Shown here: positions 13,395 through 47,050 of the stretch, in pieces
Layout: the number at the start of each line of letters is the position of its first letter
Position numbering within the stretch: the stretch's first letter is position 1
Notes under the pieces: model-generated
Told to the model about the DNA's origin: nothing
Databases searched by the model: none
Seen by the model: the letters and a program-made list of their open reading frames with translations, nothing else
Assembly: GCA_947259175.1 (NCBI GenBank)
Contig: CAMYKW010000044.1
Span: forward strand, 1 to 47,139
Direction: 5' to 3'
DNA from: an uncultured Gammaproteobacteria bacterium
GTDB taxonomy: Bacteria; Pseudomonadota; Gammaproteobacteria; Arenicellales; JAANXG01
DNA: 47,139 bases
Translations under genes and position numbers: made by a program

Positions 13395-13650
13395 CATAAT
13401 ACCGGCGTCACTAGTGCAGGGACAGACGATTTCCCGAATGGGCGCCTGGAGCGAGAGCCATAGCGAGCTATGGGTCGAGTGAAGGCCCAGCGCAGGTGTG
13501 CGAGAACCAGCCAGGGCCGGGATAGTCCAGCTACTATTCTCAGCAATCCACATCAGGAGTTTAAGCTGTCTCCTCATATAAATGACGTAACGAGTGTTTC
13601 AGCCGCATGCCAGGAATAGTAGCTGGGCGCCTGGTGAGAAATGCGGGCTA
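13395..13650 (+). repeat. Dispersed inverted-repeat element, copy C
   Basis: The right end, CTGGTGAGAAATGCGGGCTA at 13631-13650, is the family terminal repeat; the left end is degenerate, so its border is approximate. The internal hairpin CCATAGC-GA-GCTATGG is at 13458-13473. The core arms are CCAGCTACTATTC at 13527-13539 and GAATAGTAGCTGG at 13614-13626. The segment GCCAGGGCCGGGATAGTCCA (13510-13529) is identical in copy D. It lies between the divergent pdxA and fetA-like genes. Confidence 0.75.
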
Positions 13651-26130: not shown

Positions 26131-26290
26131 TAGCCCGCATATTGCATCAGTATCCGGGAAGCTGGCGCAGGACAGGGGCGGCTGAACGCCGGACTGGAAC
26201 GAAAGTCATAGCCGTAGCTATGGCTTGAGATAATCGTTTTCATCGCTTGCCGGGAATAGTAGCTGGGCGACTGGTGCAATATGCGGGCTA
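26131..26290 (+). repeat. Dispersed inverted-repeat element, copy B (complete, short)
   Basis: The 160-base copy has the clearest ends: TAGCCCGCATATTGCATCAG at 26131-26150 and CTGGTGCAATATGCGGGCTA at 26271-26290, an inverted repeat of 20 bases with one mismatch. The internal hairpin CATAGC-CGTA-GCTATG is at 26207-26222, and the single core arm GAATAGTAGCTGG is at 26254-26266. The left core arm and about 70 bases present in copies C and D are missing. It lies between the convergent phaC and speE. Confidence 0.85.
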
Positions 26291-36612: not shown

Positions 36613-36879
36613 CCCGAACATTGCACCAAGGCGCCCAGCTACTATTCCTGGTAAGCCATAGCAATACTCGCAACGTCAAACTACGAGCAGGAGGCATAAG
36701 ATCTTGGTACGCCTTGCACAGAATAGTAGCTGGACTATCCCGGCCCTGGCTCGATCTCGAACGCCTGCACTTGCACTTCACTCAACCCATAGCTACGGCT
36801 ATGGATTTCGCTCCAGCGCGGCGTTCAGTCGTCCGATCTCTTCGCCAGCTTCCGGGATCCTTGGTGCAATATCCGGTCA
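36610..36879 (-). repeat. Dispersed inverted-repeat element, copy D (stop-to-stop)
   Basis: 270 bases with ends TAACCCGAACATTGCACCAA (from 36610) and, on the minus strand, TGACCGGATATTGCACCAAG (from 36879). The core arms CCAGCTACTATTC (36635-36647) and GAATAGTAGCTGG (36721-36733), and the hairpin CCATAGC-TACG-GCTATGG (36787-36804), are intact. It fills the whole gap between patatin and the AttH-like gene and supplies both stop codons, TAA and TGA. Orientation is opposite to copies B and C. Confidence 0.88.
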
Positions 36880-38037: not shown

Positions 38038-40543
38038 GCCGCAGGGCGAAGCTCGGCGGCGTGCGCGCCAGGCGCAACGCCGGATACAGGCCCGCCAGCA
38101 GACCGGCGCCCACCGCCAGGGCGAGGCCGAGCACAAAGTGTTCCGGCGTCAGCCACACCTGCATGGTCCAGCCGAACGAGCGCTGGTTGATGATGAAAAT
38201 AAGCGCCAGCGCCAGGAACAGGCCCAGCGGCAGCGCCAGCACCCCGGCGGCGAGACCCAACAGGCCGGTCTCGGTGGTGACCAGCGCCCACAGTTGCCGT
38301 GGGGTGAAGCCGTTGGCGCGCAGCACCGCGAACTCGCGGCCGCGCTCCAATTGAATCGACATCAGCGCGCTGAAGATGCCGATCACCGCGATCACCACCG
38401 TGAGCACCCGCAGCACCTGGGTCACCGCGAAGGTGCGGTCGAAGATGTCCATCGACAGCGCCCGCAGTTGCCGGTTGGACCGCAGCGTCAAACCGCTGCC
38501 GGCGAGCACATCGCGCTCAAGCGCCGCCGCGAAGCGCTCGGCGTCAACGCCGGGATCGAGATACACCGCGAACGAGGAAATCGCCGCGTCCGCCCAATGT
38601 CGCTGGTAGGTGTCGCGGTGCAGGGCGACCACGCCGCGGTCCGAGCCGTAGTCGTAGAACACCCCGGCGATGGCGAATTCGCGCGTCCCCGAATCGGTGC
38701 GCAGCACCACGGTGTCGCCCACGCCGCGCCGATTGTGGTATGCGTACGGCTCGGAGACGATCACCGCTTCGCCGGATTTGAAGCGCGGCCAGGCGCCGGC
38801 GGCGTCGCCGTGTTTGAACTGAAAGTTGGCGAACGCCGCGGCATCCGCGTCCAGCACGAACAACTGGGTGCGGCCGGCGGCGCCGTCAAGCTTCGTCCAG
38901 CGCGCGGTGGTGATGGACGCCACTTCGGGCAGCGCCGCAACGCGGCGGATTACCCCGGGGTCTACGTTCCCGGCGCCGCCCGATGCGGACACATACAGGT
39001 CGGCGCGCAGATAGTTCACCAGCCAGTGCTCGACGGTGGCGCGGAAGCTGGTGATCATGATGCCCACGCCGACGGTGGCCGACACCGCCACCGCCAGGGC
39101 GGCGACGGTGACCCGGGTGCGGCTGAGGCTTTCGGTGACACCCCGCCCGGCCATGCGGCCGATGAGCCCCAGCGCCCGCGACAGGCCGCGGTGGGTGATG
39201 CGCACGATCAGCAACAGCAATGCCGGCGCCAGCAGCGCGAAGCCGAAGATCGCGAAAAACAGGCCGGCGAAACCGGCATACAGATTGCCGCCGGGCAGCG
39301 CCAGCAGCACCGCCGCCGCCGCGCTGGGGGCGAGCGCCCAGCGCGCCAACCGGCCCACCGAGCTGCGCGCCGCGCTCTCCTGGCCGGAGCGGGTGTAGGT
39401 GATCTGTGGCGGCACCCGGCTCGCCTCCAGCGCCGGCGCCAGCGCCGCGAGCACCGTCGCGCCGATGCCCAGGGCGACGCCCTTGGCGAGGCTGAGGGCG
39501 CTGATCGATACCTTTTGCACGTCGAGTCGGAAATACAGATCGTTGATGGTCTGGGCCACCAGCCCCAGCAATTGATGGCTCAGACTGATGCCCAGCGCGA
39601 TTCCGGCGAGCACACCCAGCACGCCGAGGGCCAGGGCCTCGCCGCCGACCGCCAGGAACAGCTCGCGGTCACCGACGCCCAGCGTGCGCAGGGTCGCGAT
39701 CTGCGCATGTCGCTGCAGCACCGACACCGTCATCGTGTTGTAAATCAGGAACATGCCGACCACCAGGGCCAGCAGGCTGAGCGCGGTGAGGTTGATTTCG
39801 AATGCGCGTGTCATTTGTCTAAGGGCGTTGCCGCGCGAGGCGCTGCCCGCCAGTTCCGCTTCCGGCGGCAACAGGCGGCGCACCCGCGCCACCGCCTCGG
39901 GTCCGGCGAGCTCCAGGTCGATGCGGGTGAGGCGCCCGAGCCGGCCGGTGACCACCTGGGCGGTGGCGATGTCGGTGAGTACCACGGCGCGCAGCGCCTG
40001 TTCCTCGAGGGCGCTGCCGGGTTTTCCGGCGGCGGTCACCCGCAGGCGGTGAAGTCCTCCGGCGCCGCGCACTTTGAGTTCACCGGGGATGGCGAGCCCC
40101 AGCCGGCGGGCGGTGGCGTCGGTCAGCAGCGCGGCGTTATCGGTGCTCAACAGCTCAGTGGCGCTCAGGTCGCGGGTGGCGCGGTAAATCGCACTGTTGT
40201 CGGTTTGCGCCAGCGGGTCGATGCCGATGACGCTAAGGCGCTCCGCGTCGTGAGCGACCAACCGCACCGTGCCTTCGACCACCGGCCACAGCTGCCGCAG
40301 GCCGTGTTCCACGCGCAGGTCGCGGTACAGGGTTTCGTCCAGCCCCGCGGGACCGCCGATGATGTGATGCGTGGCCTGCCCGGCAACCATCTCGTTGGAC
40401 AGTTTGAACGCGCGGCGCGCGCTGTCGTTGGTCAGGTCGATGGCGATCACCACCGCCACCCCCAGAGCGATGCCGACCATGGACAGGATTGACTGCCACG
40501 GGTGGCGCAGCAGGTTACGCAGCGAGACGCGGGCGAGCATCAT
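38030..40543 (-). CDS. ABC transporter permease, FtsX/MacB-like, two-unit form
   Basis: 837 aa. An N-terminal membrane helix (SLRNLLRHPWQSILSMVGIALGVAVVIAIDL) precedes a periplasmic domain, then three helices (LTALSLLALVVGMFLIYNTM), and the FtsX-type permease module is repeated in the second half. This is the long form found in lipoprotein or lipid exporters of the AttG/YbbP/LolE kind. It overlaps the ATPase by four bases and the AttH-like gene by eight: one operon. The cargo is unknown. Confidence 0.87.
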   Translation of the reverse strand: MMLARVSLRNLLRHPWQSILSMVGIALGVAVVIAIDLTNDSARRAFKLSNEMVAGQATHHIIGGPAGLDETLYRDLRVEHGLRQLWPVVEGTVRLVAHDAERLSVIGIDPLAQTDNSAIYRATRDLSATELLSTDNAALLTDATARRLGLAIPGELKVRGAGGLHRLRVTAAGKPGSALEEQALRAVVLTDIATAQVVTGRLGRLTRIDLELAGPEAVARVRRLLPPEAELAGSASRGNALRQMTRAFEINLTALSLLALVVGMFLIYNTMTVSVLQRHAQIATLRTLGVGDRELFLAVGGEALALGVLGVLAGIALGISLSHQLLGLVAQTINDLYFRLDVQKVSISALSLAKGVALGIGATVLAALAPALEASRVPPQITYTRSGQESAARSSVGRLARWALAPSAAAAVLLALPGGNLYAGFAGLFFAIFGFALLAPALLLLIVRITHRGLSRALGLIGRMAGRGVTESLSRTRVTVAALAVAVSATVGVGIMITSFRATVEHWLVNYLRADLYVSASGGAGNVDPGVIRRVAALPEVASITTARWTKLDGAAGRTQLFVLDADAAAFANFQFKHGDAAGAWPRFKSGEAVIVSEPYAYHNRRGVGDTVVLRTDSGTREFAIAGVFYDYGSDRGVVALHRDTYQRHWADAAISSFAVYLDPGVDAERFAAALERDVLAGSGLTLRSNRQLRALSMDIFDRTFAVTQVLRVLTVVIAVIGIFSALMSIQLERGREFAVLRANGFTPRQLWALVTTETGLLGLAAGVLALPLGLFLALALIFIINQRSFGWTMQVWLTPEHFVLGLALAVGAGLLAGLYPALRLARTPPSFALRHE

Positions 40544-41232
40544 GACGCCGCTTCGGCGAGCGCGCCGTCCTGCAGGTGCAGGATGCGGTCCGCGCAGCTC
40601 GCCACCTCCGGGCTGTGGGTGGCGGCAATCACCGTGGTGTAGTCGCGCCCGGGCATAGCCCGCAGCAGCGCCAGGACTTGGTGCTCGGTATCGCGGTCGA
40701 GATTGCCGGTCGGCTCGTCGGCCAGCACCAGCGAGGGTTTGTGCGCCACCGCCCGGGCCACCGCGATGCGCTGCTGTTCGCCGCCACTGAGCCGGTCGGG
40801 GAACGCGTCGGCGCGGTCGGACAGGCCGAGCTGAGAGAGCAGTTCTGCGACGCGCTGTTGCGCCCGCGCGCGGTCGATACCGTTGAGGTCGAGGGTGAAC
40901 GCCAGGTTTTCGAATACCGTCAACGTCGGGATCAGGTTGAAGAACTGGAACACGAAGCCGATGTGTTCGCGCCGGAACAGGGTGCGGCGGCGCTCGTCGA
41001 GGGTGGAGATGTTCATCCCGCGGAACAGGATATCGCCGCGCGACGGCAGGTCGATGCCGCCGAGCAGGTTCAGCAGCGTTGACTTGCCCGAACCGCTGCG
41101 CCCGAGTATGGCGACGAATTCGCCGCTGCGGAAACGGGCGTTGATCCCCCGCAGCACAGTGCGCTCGCGCTGGGCGTCGGGATAGATCTTGTGCACGTCA
41201 GATAGTGCGATGATTGGATCGGCGTCGGCCAT
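40540..41232 (-). CDS. ABC transporter ATP-binding protein, LolD/MacB type
   Basis: 230 aa. Walker A is GRSGSGKST, the signature is [14 protein letters not shown], Walker B is LVLADEP, and the TGNLD D-loop is typical of the LolD/MacB/FtsE group. Its stop overlaps the ATG of the FtsX-like permease. It energises the exporter encoded by the next two genes. Confidence 0.93.
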
Positions 41233-41295: not shown

Positions 41296-41396
41296 CCAGC
41301 GACTATTCTCGGCAATATCTATCGGCGATTAATCAACGCCTCTTCGTAGCAGTGTGCTTACAGGCGGTTCCACCGCATACCCGGAATAGTCGCTGG
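41296..41396 (+). repeat. Core of the dispersed element only (copy E)
   Basis: The arms CCAGCGACTATTC (41296-41308) and GAATAGTCGCTGG (41384-41396) are perfectly complementary. Compared with copies C and D the fifth-from-left T is G and its partner A is C, so pairing is kept. Flanking sequence GGCAAT and CCGCAT also matches copy C. Terminal repeats are absent. It lies between the divergent ABC ATPase and the EEP-fold gene. Confidence 0.75.
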
Positions 41397-41451: not shown

Positions 41452-42240
41452 TTGAACACACTGCTCCTGGTCCTTGGCTTCGCCCTGATCGTGGCCTTGA
41501 CGTGGTGGGCCGGGTTGCCGCGTCCCAAGCCGGCGGCGCGCGGCGGTGGCATCCACCCGCCGCGGCGCTGGCGCGAAGACGACGCCGAATCGCTGGTGGT
41601 CGCGACCTACAACATTCATGGCGGCAAAGGCGTGGACGGTAGGCGCGATCTGGCGCGCGCCGCAAAAATGTTACGCGACGCCGATGTCGCCGCGCTGCAG
41701 GAGGTGCGCGCCGGCGCCGGCGGCGATCAGGCGGCGGCGATCGCCCGCGTCAACAACAAAGGCTGGTTGTTCGCCCCCACCCTGACCCGCTGGTTTCGCG
41801 ACGTCCGCGGCAATGCCCTGATCAGCGCGTTCCCCGCCGCCGAGTGGCGCCGCGAGCCGCTGGTCAATATCGCCGGTCGCCGCTACCGCAACCTCGCGAT
41901 CGTTAGGCTGCGCGTTGGGCGGCGCGATCTGTGGGTGTTGTTCACCCACCTGCACACCCGCGCCGGTCGCACCGAGCAACTGCGCGCGGTGCTGGCGCGC
42001 TTCGCGCAGTATGAACCGGCGATTCTACTCGGCGACCTCAACACCACCCGCGCCGATCCGCAGCTCGCTGCGGCGCTGAAAGACGGCGCCGTCGATGCGT
42101 TGCGTGAGACGCTCGGCGACGAGGACCGGGACGACCGCGTCGACTGGATTATCACCAGGGGCGTGACCATCGACACCGGCGGCGTGCGCGATGTGGGCGT
42201 GTCCGACCACCCGTATTACTGGGTGCGGGTCGGGTTGTGA
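41452..42240 (+). CDS. Endonuclease/exonuclease/phosphatase (EEP) family hydrolase, membrane-anchored
   Basis: 262 aa. A single N-terminal hydrophobic helix (about 2-22) is followed by the EEP fold: VVATYNIHGGKG, the catalytic Glu in ALQEVRAG, FTHLHTR, LLGDLNTT and the terminal VSDHPYYWVRV. This is a metal-dependent phosphodiesterase or phosphatase; DNA, RNA or lipid substrates are all possible. The best start is a TTG at 41452 with no clear ribosome-binding site, so the N-terminus is uncertain. A TATACT box lies at about 41404. Confidence 0.83.
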   Translation: MNTLLLVLGFALIVALTWWAGLPRPKPAARGGGIHPPRRWREDDAESLVVATYNIHGGKGVDGRRDLARAAKMLRDADVAALQEVRAGAGGDQAAAIARVNNKGWLFAPTLTRWFRDVRGNALISAFPAAEWRREPLVNIAGRRYRNLAIVRLRVGRRDLWVLFTHLHTRAGRTEQLRAVLARFAQYEPAILLGDLNTTRADPQLAAALKDGAVDALRETLGDEDRDDRVDWIITRGVTIDTGGVRDVGVSDHPYYWVRVGL

Positions 42241-42320
42241 CTGCGTAGCAGGAATCGCGTGCCAGGCTCCGAGGTCGGGGCTTTGTAATGGGGACGCTTT
42301 TTCCGCGCGATTGTCATATT

Positions 42321-42408
42321 CGCGGTTGCAAACCGCTCCCACGGGAGTCAGTCGCGGTGGCAGACCGCTCCCACGGGAAGTCTGTCGCGGTTGCAAACCG
42401 CTCCCACT
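42321..42408. repeat. Three tandem REP-like palindromes
   Basis: Units starting at 42321, 42353 and 42386 share CGCGGTTGCAAACCGCTCCC, with the stem GCGGTT-GCA-AACCGC, and are spaced 32-33 bases apart. The sequence type is the REP repeat common between genes of gammaproteobacteria. It lies between the convergent EEP-fold gene and pckG and may act on transcript ends. Confidence 0.8.
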
Positions 42409-42460
42409 ATCATTAATAGAGTCACGCCCCAAAACCGGCCGGGGCCCGACGCTCACAGGA

Positions 42461-44248
42461 CTACAGCGAAGTCTCGAGGCGAGAAATCAGCTTGTCGAGT
42501 TCCTGGCTCAATGCCGCGGGCACCCGGTCGCCGAAGTTGCGGTAGTAATCGCGTACGCTGATCGCTTCGGACAGCCAGCCCTCTAAGTCAACGTGCAACA
42601 GCGCCTCCATGTCGTCGGGCGTGACGTCCACCCCGTTGGTGTCGAGCGCACCGTTGGCCGGTAGGTTGCCGATCACGGTTTCAGTGGCGTCGGCGGTGCC
42701 TTCGCAACGCTCGAAGACCCACTTGAGCACCCGGCTGTTGTCGCCGAAACCCGGCCACAGAAACTTGCCGTCCTCGCTCTTGCGGAACCAGTTCACGTAA
42801 TAGATCTTCGGCAGCTGCGCGCCTTCGCGTTCCTGCAGCGACAGCCAGTGCGCCCAGTAGTCCGCCATGTTGTAGCCGCAGAACGGCAGCATTGCCATCG
42901 GGTCGCGACGCACCATGCCCAGGGCGCCGGTGGCGGCTGCGGTCTTTTCGCTGCCCATCATCGAGCCGATGAACACGCCGTGCTGCCAATCGCGCGCCTC
43001 GTGCACCAGCGGCACCACGGTGGCGCGGCGGCCTCCGAACAGGATGGCGCTGATCGGCACCCCCTTCGGGTCTTCCCATTCCGGGGCAATCACCGGGCAT
43101 TGACGCGCGGGCGCGGTGAACCGCGCGTTGGGGTGGGCGGCCTGCGCCTCGGCGTGGGGGTGCCACTCATGGCCCAGCCAGTTGGTGAGCGTGGCCGGCG
43201 GCTCGTCGGTCATCTCCTCCCACCACACGTCGCCATCTGCGGTCAGCGCACAGTTGGTGAAGATGCAGTTCTCCTTCAGGGCGAGCATCGCGTTCGGGTT
43301 CGACTTCATGCTGGTGCCCGGCGCGACGCCGAAAAAGCCCGCCTCGGGATTGATTGCGTACAACCGCCCGTCGTCGCCGAATTTCATCCACGCGATGTCG
43401 TCGCCGATGGTTTCGCACTTCCAACCGTCCAGGGTCGGATTCATCATCGCCAGGTTGGTTTTACCGCAGGCGCTGGGAAAGGCCGCGGTGACGTAACGCG
43501 ACACCCCTTGTGGATTGGTGAGTTTCAAGATCAGCATGTGTTCGGCGAGCCAGCCCTCGTCGCGGCCCATCACCGAAGCGATGCGCAGCGCGAAGCATTT
43601 CTTGCCGAGCAGGGCATTGCCGCCGTAACCGGAACCGAACGACCAGATCTCCCGGGTCTCGGGGTAGTGCACGATGTATTTATTGTCGGCGTTGCACGGC
43701 CACGGCACGTCTTTCTCGCCATCCGCCAGCGGCGCGCCGACGGAATGCAGGCACGGCACGAAGTCGCCGTCGCCCAGGGTATCCAGGACCTTTTGTCCGA
43801 CGCGGGTCATCATGTGCATATTGGCGACCACGTAGGGGGAGTCGCTGATCTGCACCCCGATGTGGGCGATGGGTGAGCCGACCGGCCCCATGCTGAACGG
43901 GATCACGTACATGGTGCGACCGCGCATCGAGCCGGTAAACAGCTCGCGCAGCGTGTTCTTCATGTCGTCGGGGTTGTGCCAGTTGTTGGTCGGACCGGCG
44001 TCGTCCTCGTTGACGGAGCAGATAAACGTGCGGTCCTCGACCCGCGCGACGTCGGCGGGATCGGACATCACCAGGATGCTGTTCGGGCGTTTGCTGTCAT
44101 TCAGCTTCCGCGCCGTGCCGCTGTCGAGCATGATGCGGATCATTTCGTCGTATTCGGCCGGGGAGCCGTCGCACCAGCGCACCTCTTCAGGCTGACACAG
44201 GTCGCGCACCTCCTCCACCCAGGCCTTGAGCTTGGCATTGTTCGTCAT
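42461..44248 (-). CDS. pckG: Phosphoenolpyruvate carboxykinase (GTP)
   Basis: 595 aa from ATG 44248 ([29 protein letters not shown]), behind GGAGAAAG; a TTG five codons earlier is rejected. It converts oxaloacetate and GTP to phosphoenolpyruvate, CO2 and GDP. The GTP-type P-loop PSACGKTN and the active-site segments [15 protein letters not shown]-like, [21 protein letters not shown] and [18 protein letters not shown] are present, distinct from the ATP form. The gene lies alone on its strand; a dyad GGTGAC-G-GTCACC at 44319-44331 upstream could be an operator. Confidence 0.97.
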
Positions 44249-46917: not shown

Positions 46918-46940
46918 CATTCATGTCGACGCATGGGTTT

Positions 46941-47050
46941 GAGATTATGTGGGACAGCGTTGGGTCAGCACCCTTTTCTGTTTTATGAGTGGGAGATTAT
47001 GTGGGACAGCGTTGGGTCAGCACCCTTTTCTGTTTTATGAGTGGGAGATT
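46941..47050. repeat. 52-bp exact tandem duplication
   Basis: Two identical 52-base units (46941-46992 and 46993-47044), starting GAGATTATGTGGGACAGCGT, are followed by the first six bases of a third (GAGATT at 47045). They lie directly downstream of the IS110-like transposase end and probably derive from that element's edge. Confidence 0.85.

Follow-up and report, generated by a model that had tools for sequence, protein, structure and literature searches.

A nested, MITE-like inverted repeat with covarying arms and invertible-looking loops in an uncultured gammaproteobacterial genus

The window analysed is a stretch of 47,139 nucleotides, contig C44 of the 4.18-Mb draft genome (G000) of an uncultured gammaproteobacterium. 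It holds copies of a core of ~98-102 nt with 13-bp inverted arms (consensus CC[A/C]GC-NN-CTATTC). Throughout the genus the two arms vary in a matched fashion, the core is mostly nested in a larger element with IS1380-type ends, and its loop is found in both orientations. With modest confidence, we favour the reading that the core is MITE-like and nested, that it needs matching ends to spread, and that arm-to-arm exchange flips its loop. The core would then be a miniature mobile element with the 13-bp arms serving as terminal inverted repeats bound by a transposase, and it would usually sit beside one end of a larger IS1380-type miniature element. Copies that multiply would need two like ends, so that arm changes would become fixed pairwise in propagating lineages, and each inserted copy would then decay, one side after another. 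Exchange between the arms, by recombination or template switching, would invert the loop and might also supply matched changes.

Copies of the core in the window and in the genus

Copy E (41296-41396, 101 nt, listed without strand) lies outside any composite, the term used here for the larger element with the core inside it. Its arms are CCAGCGACTATTC at 41296-41308 and GAATAGTCGCTGG at 41384-41396, with G-C at arm position 6. The cores of copy C (13527-13626, minus strand as matched by model R1; arms at 13527-13539 and 13614-13626) and copy D (36635-36733, plus strand; arms at 36635-36647 and 36721-36733) both lie within composites, share the arms CCAGCTACTATTC and GAATAGTAGCTGG, and have T-A at this position. 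An earlier note on this DNA had described one base changed per arm with complementarity kept, around a diverging loop of ~75 bases. Reading the arms confirmed both points: T-A is replaced by G-C on both sides in copy E, and the divergent loops measure 75 nt (E), 74 nt (C) and 73 nt (D). Seven matches to the arm pattern (≤2 mismatches) were found in the window versus 1.13 expected, and seven was reached by 0 of 100 shuffles.

The composite of copy C carries an outer terminal repeat, CCCGCATTTCTCACCA, at 13632-13647 (minus strand), and no second outer repeat was found nearby at ≤4 mismatches. The composite of copy D is bounded by CCCGAACATTGCACCA on the left (36613-36628, plus strand) and ACCGGATATTGCACCA on the right (36862-36877, minus strand). 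A deletion form of the composite (26134-26287, minus strand) retains a single core arm at 26254-26266 between outer repeats at 26134-26149 and 26272-26287, with CTAG at each side. The absence of outer terminal repeats from copy E, also claimed earlier, was borne out: none lies beside it, and the nearest matches to either outer-end consensus (40574-40589 and 42993-43008) each differ at 4 bases and are ~700 and ~1600 bases away. There is no target duplication at copy E (GTGG/GGCT). Copy E is located between divergent genes, for an ABC transporter ATPase (40540-41232, minus strand) and an endonuclease/exonuclease/phosphatase-family protein (41452-42240, plus strand), and copy D between convergent patatin-like and CrtC-like genes; these placements do not suggest a single fixed regulatory role.

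Other repeats were also observed in the window. An additional outer-type terminal repeat, CCCGAATATTGCACCA, is present on the minus strand at 134-149, close to the window start. At 42320-42420 there are three spaced copies of a short palindrome-like repeat, GCGGT..ACCGCTCCCAC, which we take to resemble the REP-type repeats of pseudomonads. A 52-bp tandem duplication lies near the window end (46933-47036), its second copy 94% identical.

A pattern fixing 11 of the 13 arm positions collected 44 paired cores in G000, and a covariance model built on 42 collected cores matched all six genomes of the genus, often on both strands of one place (G000, 125 matches; G001, 81; G002, 17; G003, 54; G004, 33; G005, 76). 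The first G000 set, with its fixed positions, and much of the genus set, found by a model that rewards pairing, are biased to intact arms. The main set comprised 171 copies, among the matches listed, from these six genomes (G000-G005); two of the 173 unique copies were left out for a core length outside 94-110 nt. Among named assemblies, the arm pattern was found in three uncultured Gammaproteobacteria MAGs. Beyond the genus, one of seven other genomes of the family gave one weak model match (E 5.4e-5), and the exact arm pattern, which demands the arm type of G000, occurred in 0 of 54 non-genus genomes among the matches listed. The composite of copy D gave no match to plasmid and phage sequences, and the titles and abstracts listed by the literature searches made here did not describe this core element.

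The composite and the core as a possible independent unit

The flanks of 119 of the 171 copies strictly fit one place in the larger element, in the order outer end (CCCGCATTTCTCACCAGGCGC or CCCGCATATTGCACCAAGGCGC), core, RCTATCCCGG. In 56 composites, the 4-bp duplications, mostly YTAR, were identical in 16 and matched at ≥3 of 4 bases in 37. The composite ends, CCCGCATTTCTCACCA and CCCGCATATTGCACCA, resemble the ends, CCCGGATATTGCACGA, of a full-length IS1380-family element in G000 (985-1000 and 2588-2603 of locus L124). The transposase of that element matches NF033539 (E 2.8e-121) and is encoded by the one full-length gene of its kind in the genome. IS1380 ends in relatives, CCTGGATTTCTCACCG in G004 and CCCGCATATGTCACCA in G040 (same order), are also like the composite ends. 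In a survey of 41 genomes, 18 had an IS1380 match and 8 passed the curated cut-off; no match was found in G001, G002 or G005. An IS5-family parent, guessed at from the YTAR site, was dropped after the NF033539 match.

By the sequence of its terminal repeats and its 4-bp duplication, the outer composite is classed as a putative IS1380-type MITE. Like IS1380-group MITEs, it has CCCGCAT.. ends and a 4-bp YTAR duplication and is too short for a transposase gene, and its genome and genus also contain full-length IS1380 elements whose ends are similar; it differs in that another inverted-repeat element occupies a constant site inside it. Passages of PMC10813416 describe piggyBac elements as inserting mostly at TTAA, with IS1380 as their outgroup.

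Fresh insertion of the core into standing composites is disfavoured: a search with the exact pattern of a core-free junction gave five matches in the six genomes (control, 1), and at least three of the five look like right-arm remnants. Cores were also observed in other arrangements. Two loci (L076 and L092) hold two-core composites with one core at each of two inner positions, and in four (L074, L077, L208 and L121) cores are flanked by a different repeat, marked by segments like CGGGACCGT and GTGAATAC..AGGCTC and unlike the IS1380-type composite.

The suggestion in the earlier note that the core could be a unit in its own right fared unevenly, with a few non-composite copies in this genome in its favour and copy E itself giving no such support. 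Of the 29 copies not assigned to a composite, 23 are in G000; some of the 29 are array members, some sit in repeats of another kind, and a few belong to degenerate composites. Duplications matching at 4 of 4 bases, all YTAR and located one base beyond the arms, flank five copies from four loci (L064 twice, L079, L119 and L209), and nine match at ≥3 of 4 bases; the mean duplication match over all 29 was 1.79 at that offset versus 0.69-1.24 at three others. A perfect duplication is absent from 24 of the 29, copy E among them. In the 31 IS1380 loci scanned, a subset of the matches, no autonomous element with core-type ends (CC[A/C]GCNNCTATTC) was found, the lone near match to the core ends lying inside a gene. 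Because none of these loci yielded a transposase-bearing element that shares its ends, the core is not classed as a member of IS1380.

ERIC, YPAL and NEMIS are palindromic intergenic repeats, ~100-nt imperfect palindromes scattered between genes. The core resembles them as they are generally described, and differs in its duplications, nesting and loop inversion. An IS200/IS605-type or REP hairpin element would be expected to involve a Y1 transposase and to lack a target duplication; some cores here have a duplication. Head-to-tail cores joined by TGG were seen in two arrays, with two cores in L086 (401-600) and three in L095 (398-690); both lack a target duplication, as though the ends abutted. 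In L064, two head-to-tail cores have common CTAA sites.

Covariation between the arms and the case for a folded structure

Covariation was scored by our own column-pair and shuffle statistics in place of R-scape. When all column pairs of the 171 aligned copies were ranked, arm pairs 6 and 7 outscored all others, with 158 of 171 Watson-Crick at pair 6 (56.1 expected, z 16.3) and 153 of 171 at pair 7 (80.8 expected, z 15.3). The arm diagonal held five of the 12 best column pairs (6, 7, 3, 2 and 8). Relatedness among the copies inflates column statistics: columns 65-98, which have no reason to pair, gave 141 versus 73.2 expected as a result of shared ancestry, near the score of arm pair 3 (154 Watson-Crick versus 77.1 expected).

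A search on the flanks only, blind to the arms, gave 61 matches versus 2 for a reversed-pattern control, and the 60 outside the window were sampled; four judged to be chance matches (L257, L269, L270 and L271) are in the n = 60 counts and are left out of the n = 56 counts and of the arm-blind branch-length comparison. Position 6 was matched in 53 of the 60 (26.7 expected; C-G 32, G-C 20) and position 7 in 48 (19.7 expected; C-G 22, A-T 17, T-A 8), and position 8 had C-G 43, T-A 5 and G-C 2. With n = 56, 625 of 728 cells were matched, where shuffling gave 541 on average and 566 at most, and 16 arm pairs were perfect versus 2.6 in shuffles (maximum 8). The arm covariation is real, and a search artefact was ruled out by this flank-anchored sample. 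Arm substitutions are paired far above chance, as the earlier note would have it, both in the 171 copies and in the arm-blind sample, most clearly at positions 6 and 7.

That note had named selection on a paired structure as a possible cause. We consider it unlikely that the arms are selected to fold, as a hairpin or cruciform, in RNA or in single-stranded DNA, where the fold might for instance mark a processing site or serve as a substrate for recombination. In favour of such a structure, covariation is strong, positions 6 and 7 each showing three types of pair, and the window cores have low-energy folds as single-stranded DNA (plus strand; z of -3.4 for C, -2.7 for D and -5.7 for E, with the copy D fold equalled by 2 of 200 shuffles). 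In alignment A1 (42 cores, mostly from G000), the inner nine pairs of a fitted 22-bp stem had 18 two-sided cells versus 11.2 shuffled, with 3 of 500 shuffles as high, and 70% of cells were paired versus ≤49% when slid; this signal also favours a hairpin, but it is weak, and the 22-bp stem was not retained. On the other side, the strand-specific wobble bias of G-U over A-C is absent, with 43 G-T and 45 A-C cells (36 and 36 in the composite frame). There is no clear excess of pairing outside the arms (66 of 119 paired at offset 1 versus 60.2 expected), the largest excess inward of them, at position 18, is weak (80 versus 62.8; both counts by simple indexing with no alignment), and in the aligned scan of the 171 copies the 40 top-scoring column pairs include none from the inner stem. 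An Rfam cmscan of the window at the gathering threshold returned 0 matches.

The ordinary outer ends also vary in a matched fashion. In 56 composites, the outer repeats were matched at position 5 in 43 (28.8 expected), position 8 in 51 (24.9), position 10 in 42 (23.9) and position 11 in 50 (27.0), counts that share the kinship weakness noted above and are dominated by two end types. Because G-T and A-C mismatches are equal, the inner stem is weak and the outer repeats are matched as well, the arm covariation does not have to reflect RNA folding. Of the structural claim, the predicted arm covariation stood, whereas there is little or no coupling past the 13-bp arm and selection on pairing was not specifically supported. 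Paired substitutions are often read as proof of RNA structure; here strong covariation comes from apparent mobile-element ends, and the core is a cautionary case for covariation tests on repeats.

The favoured reading, in which like ends would be needed for spread, also has evidence against it. Most cores lie inside the composite, with arms that are not its outermost ends, and a terminal-repeat role alone does not explain their continued matching there. Within single genomes, positions 6 and 7 vary freely but stay matched, a pattern that suits pairing or conversion more than reading by a protein.

Loop orientation and the timing of arm changes

The minority loop orientation was found in 34 of the 119 strict composites, the orientation across distant subfamilies being set by similarity and less certain. 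On a tree of the interiors, orientation required at least 16 changes versus 24-34 in 200 label shuffles. The clearest flip was observed in G002, where the interiors of L140 and L135 are 96% identical to that of L146 one way and 49% the other. Two candidates raised by a loose flank classification are absent from the strict flips and were rejected, L154/L147 having the same flanks and the same orientation, and L068 having mixed flanks relative to the others. Since core-free junctions are rare, inversion in place is likelier than re-insertion.

The recurrent inversion could be the work of a putative site-specific recombinase, with the arm blocks as its binding sites and positions 6-7 as an identical overlap; the conserved-variable-conserved layout of the arms, with matching centred on positions 6-7, is in keeping with this. 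We regard it as highly improbable: orientation is passed down along the tree (16 changes versus 24-34 shuffled), so that inversion is not fast, and two or three free bases would make a short overlap for a tyrosine recombinase. It is likewise very unlikely that the core works as an invertible piece of DNA that flips its loop inside the MITE, with the arms as recombination sites whose central bases may vary but have to match, and with flipping tied to spread.

Arm-to-arm template switching is the strongest rival of the end-matching view, or its partner. During replication a nascent strand would switch arms, copy one onto the other and at times invert the loop, and mutational homogenisation of this kind would require no selection on pairing. 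As the sole cause we hold it possible, though doubtful. The opposite loop orientations in like flanks, the G002 pair included, are as it predicts, and the inversion of loops between the arms lends weight to the caveat of the earlier note that gene conversion between arms could produce the paired changes. There are precedents: passages of PMC8604942 describe, in yeast, template switching between short inverted repeats that leads to arm homogenisation and spacer inversion, and passages of PMC8794818 invoke template switching to account for compensatory changes in RNA genes. As described there, such repeats share with the core matched arm changes and spacer inversion; their spacers are 3-5 nt in tabulated examples versus ~75 nt in the core, which is multi-copy and mobile-looking. 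Homogenisation also leaves unexplained that the inner mismatch A/A at position 14 persists in 92 of the 171 copies (simple indexing), and that outer repeats >100 bp apart are matched as well.

Its rate is a further constraint. On the interior-only tree (75 columns, FastTree, one parsimony resolution), 35 of 42 two-sided events were matched versus a null mean of 4.35 (maximum 13 in 2000), two-sided counts being inflated where misplaced leaves multiply inherited two-sided states. The ratio of matched two-sided to one-sided events was 20:13 on internal branches and 15:158 at the tips (Fisher 2e-10). In 39 disjoint close pairs (≥85% identity), 44 differences were confined to one side, and of the two-sided ones 1 was matched and 4 were unmatched. 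With 44 one-sided differences to 1 matched in close pairs and 158 to 15 at the tips, homogenisation would have to be slow. For the end-matching reading, the contrast between internal branches and tips fits decay after insertion together with multiplication that favours copies with like ends.

On longer branches arm mismatches level off, rising from 0.28 to 1.83 versus 0.36 to 9.36 under neutrality, and in the arm-blind sample from 1.09 to 2.67 versus 0.78 to 7.04. Conversion between arms would also yield this plateau, which counts in favour of homogenisation and, like the misplacement of leaves, against the end-matching reading. The core copies form a natural data set on how terminal repeats remain matched; in a recent G000 subfamily with interiors 95-99% identical, the arms are found in the T-A state (L085), a mixed state (L080) and the G-C state (L094 and L078).
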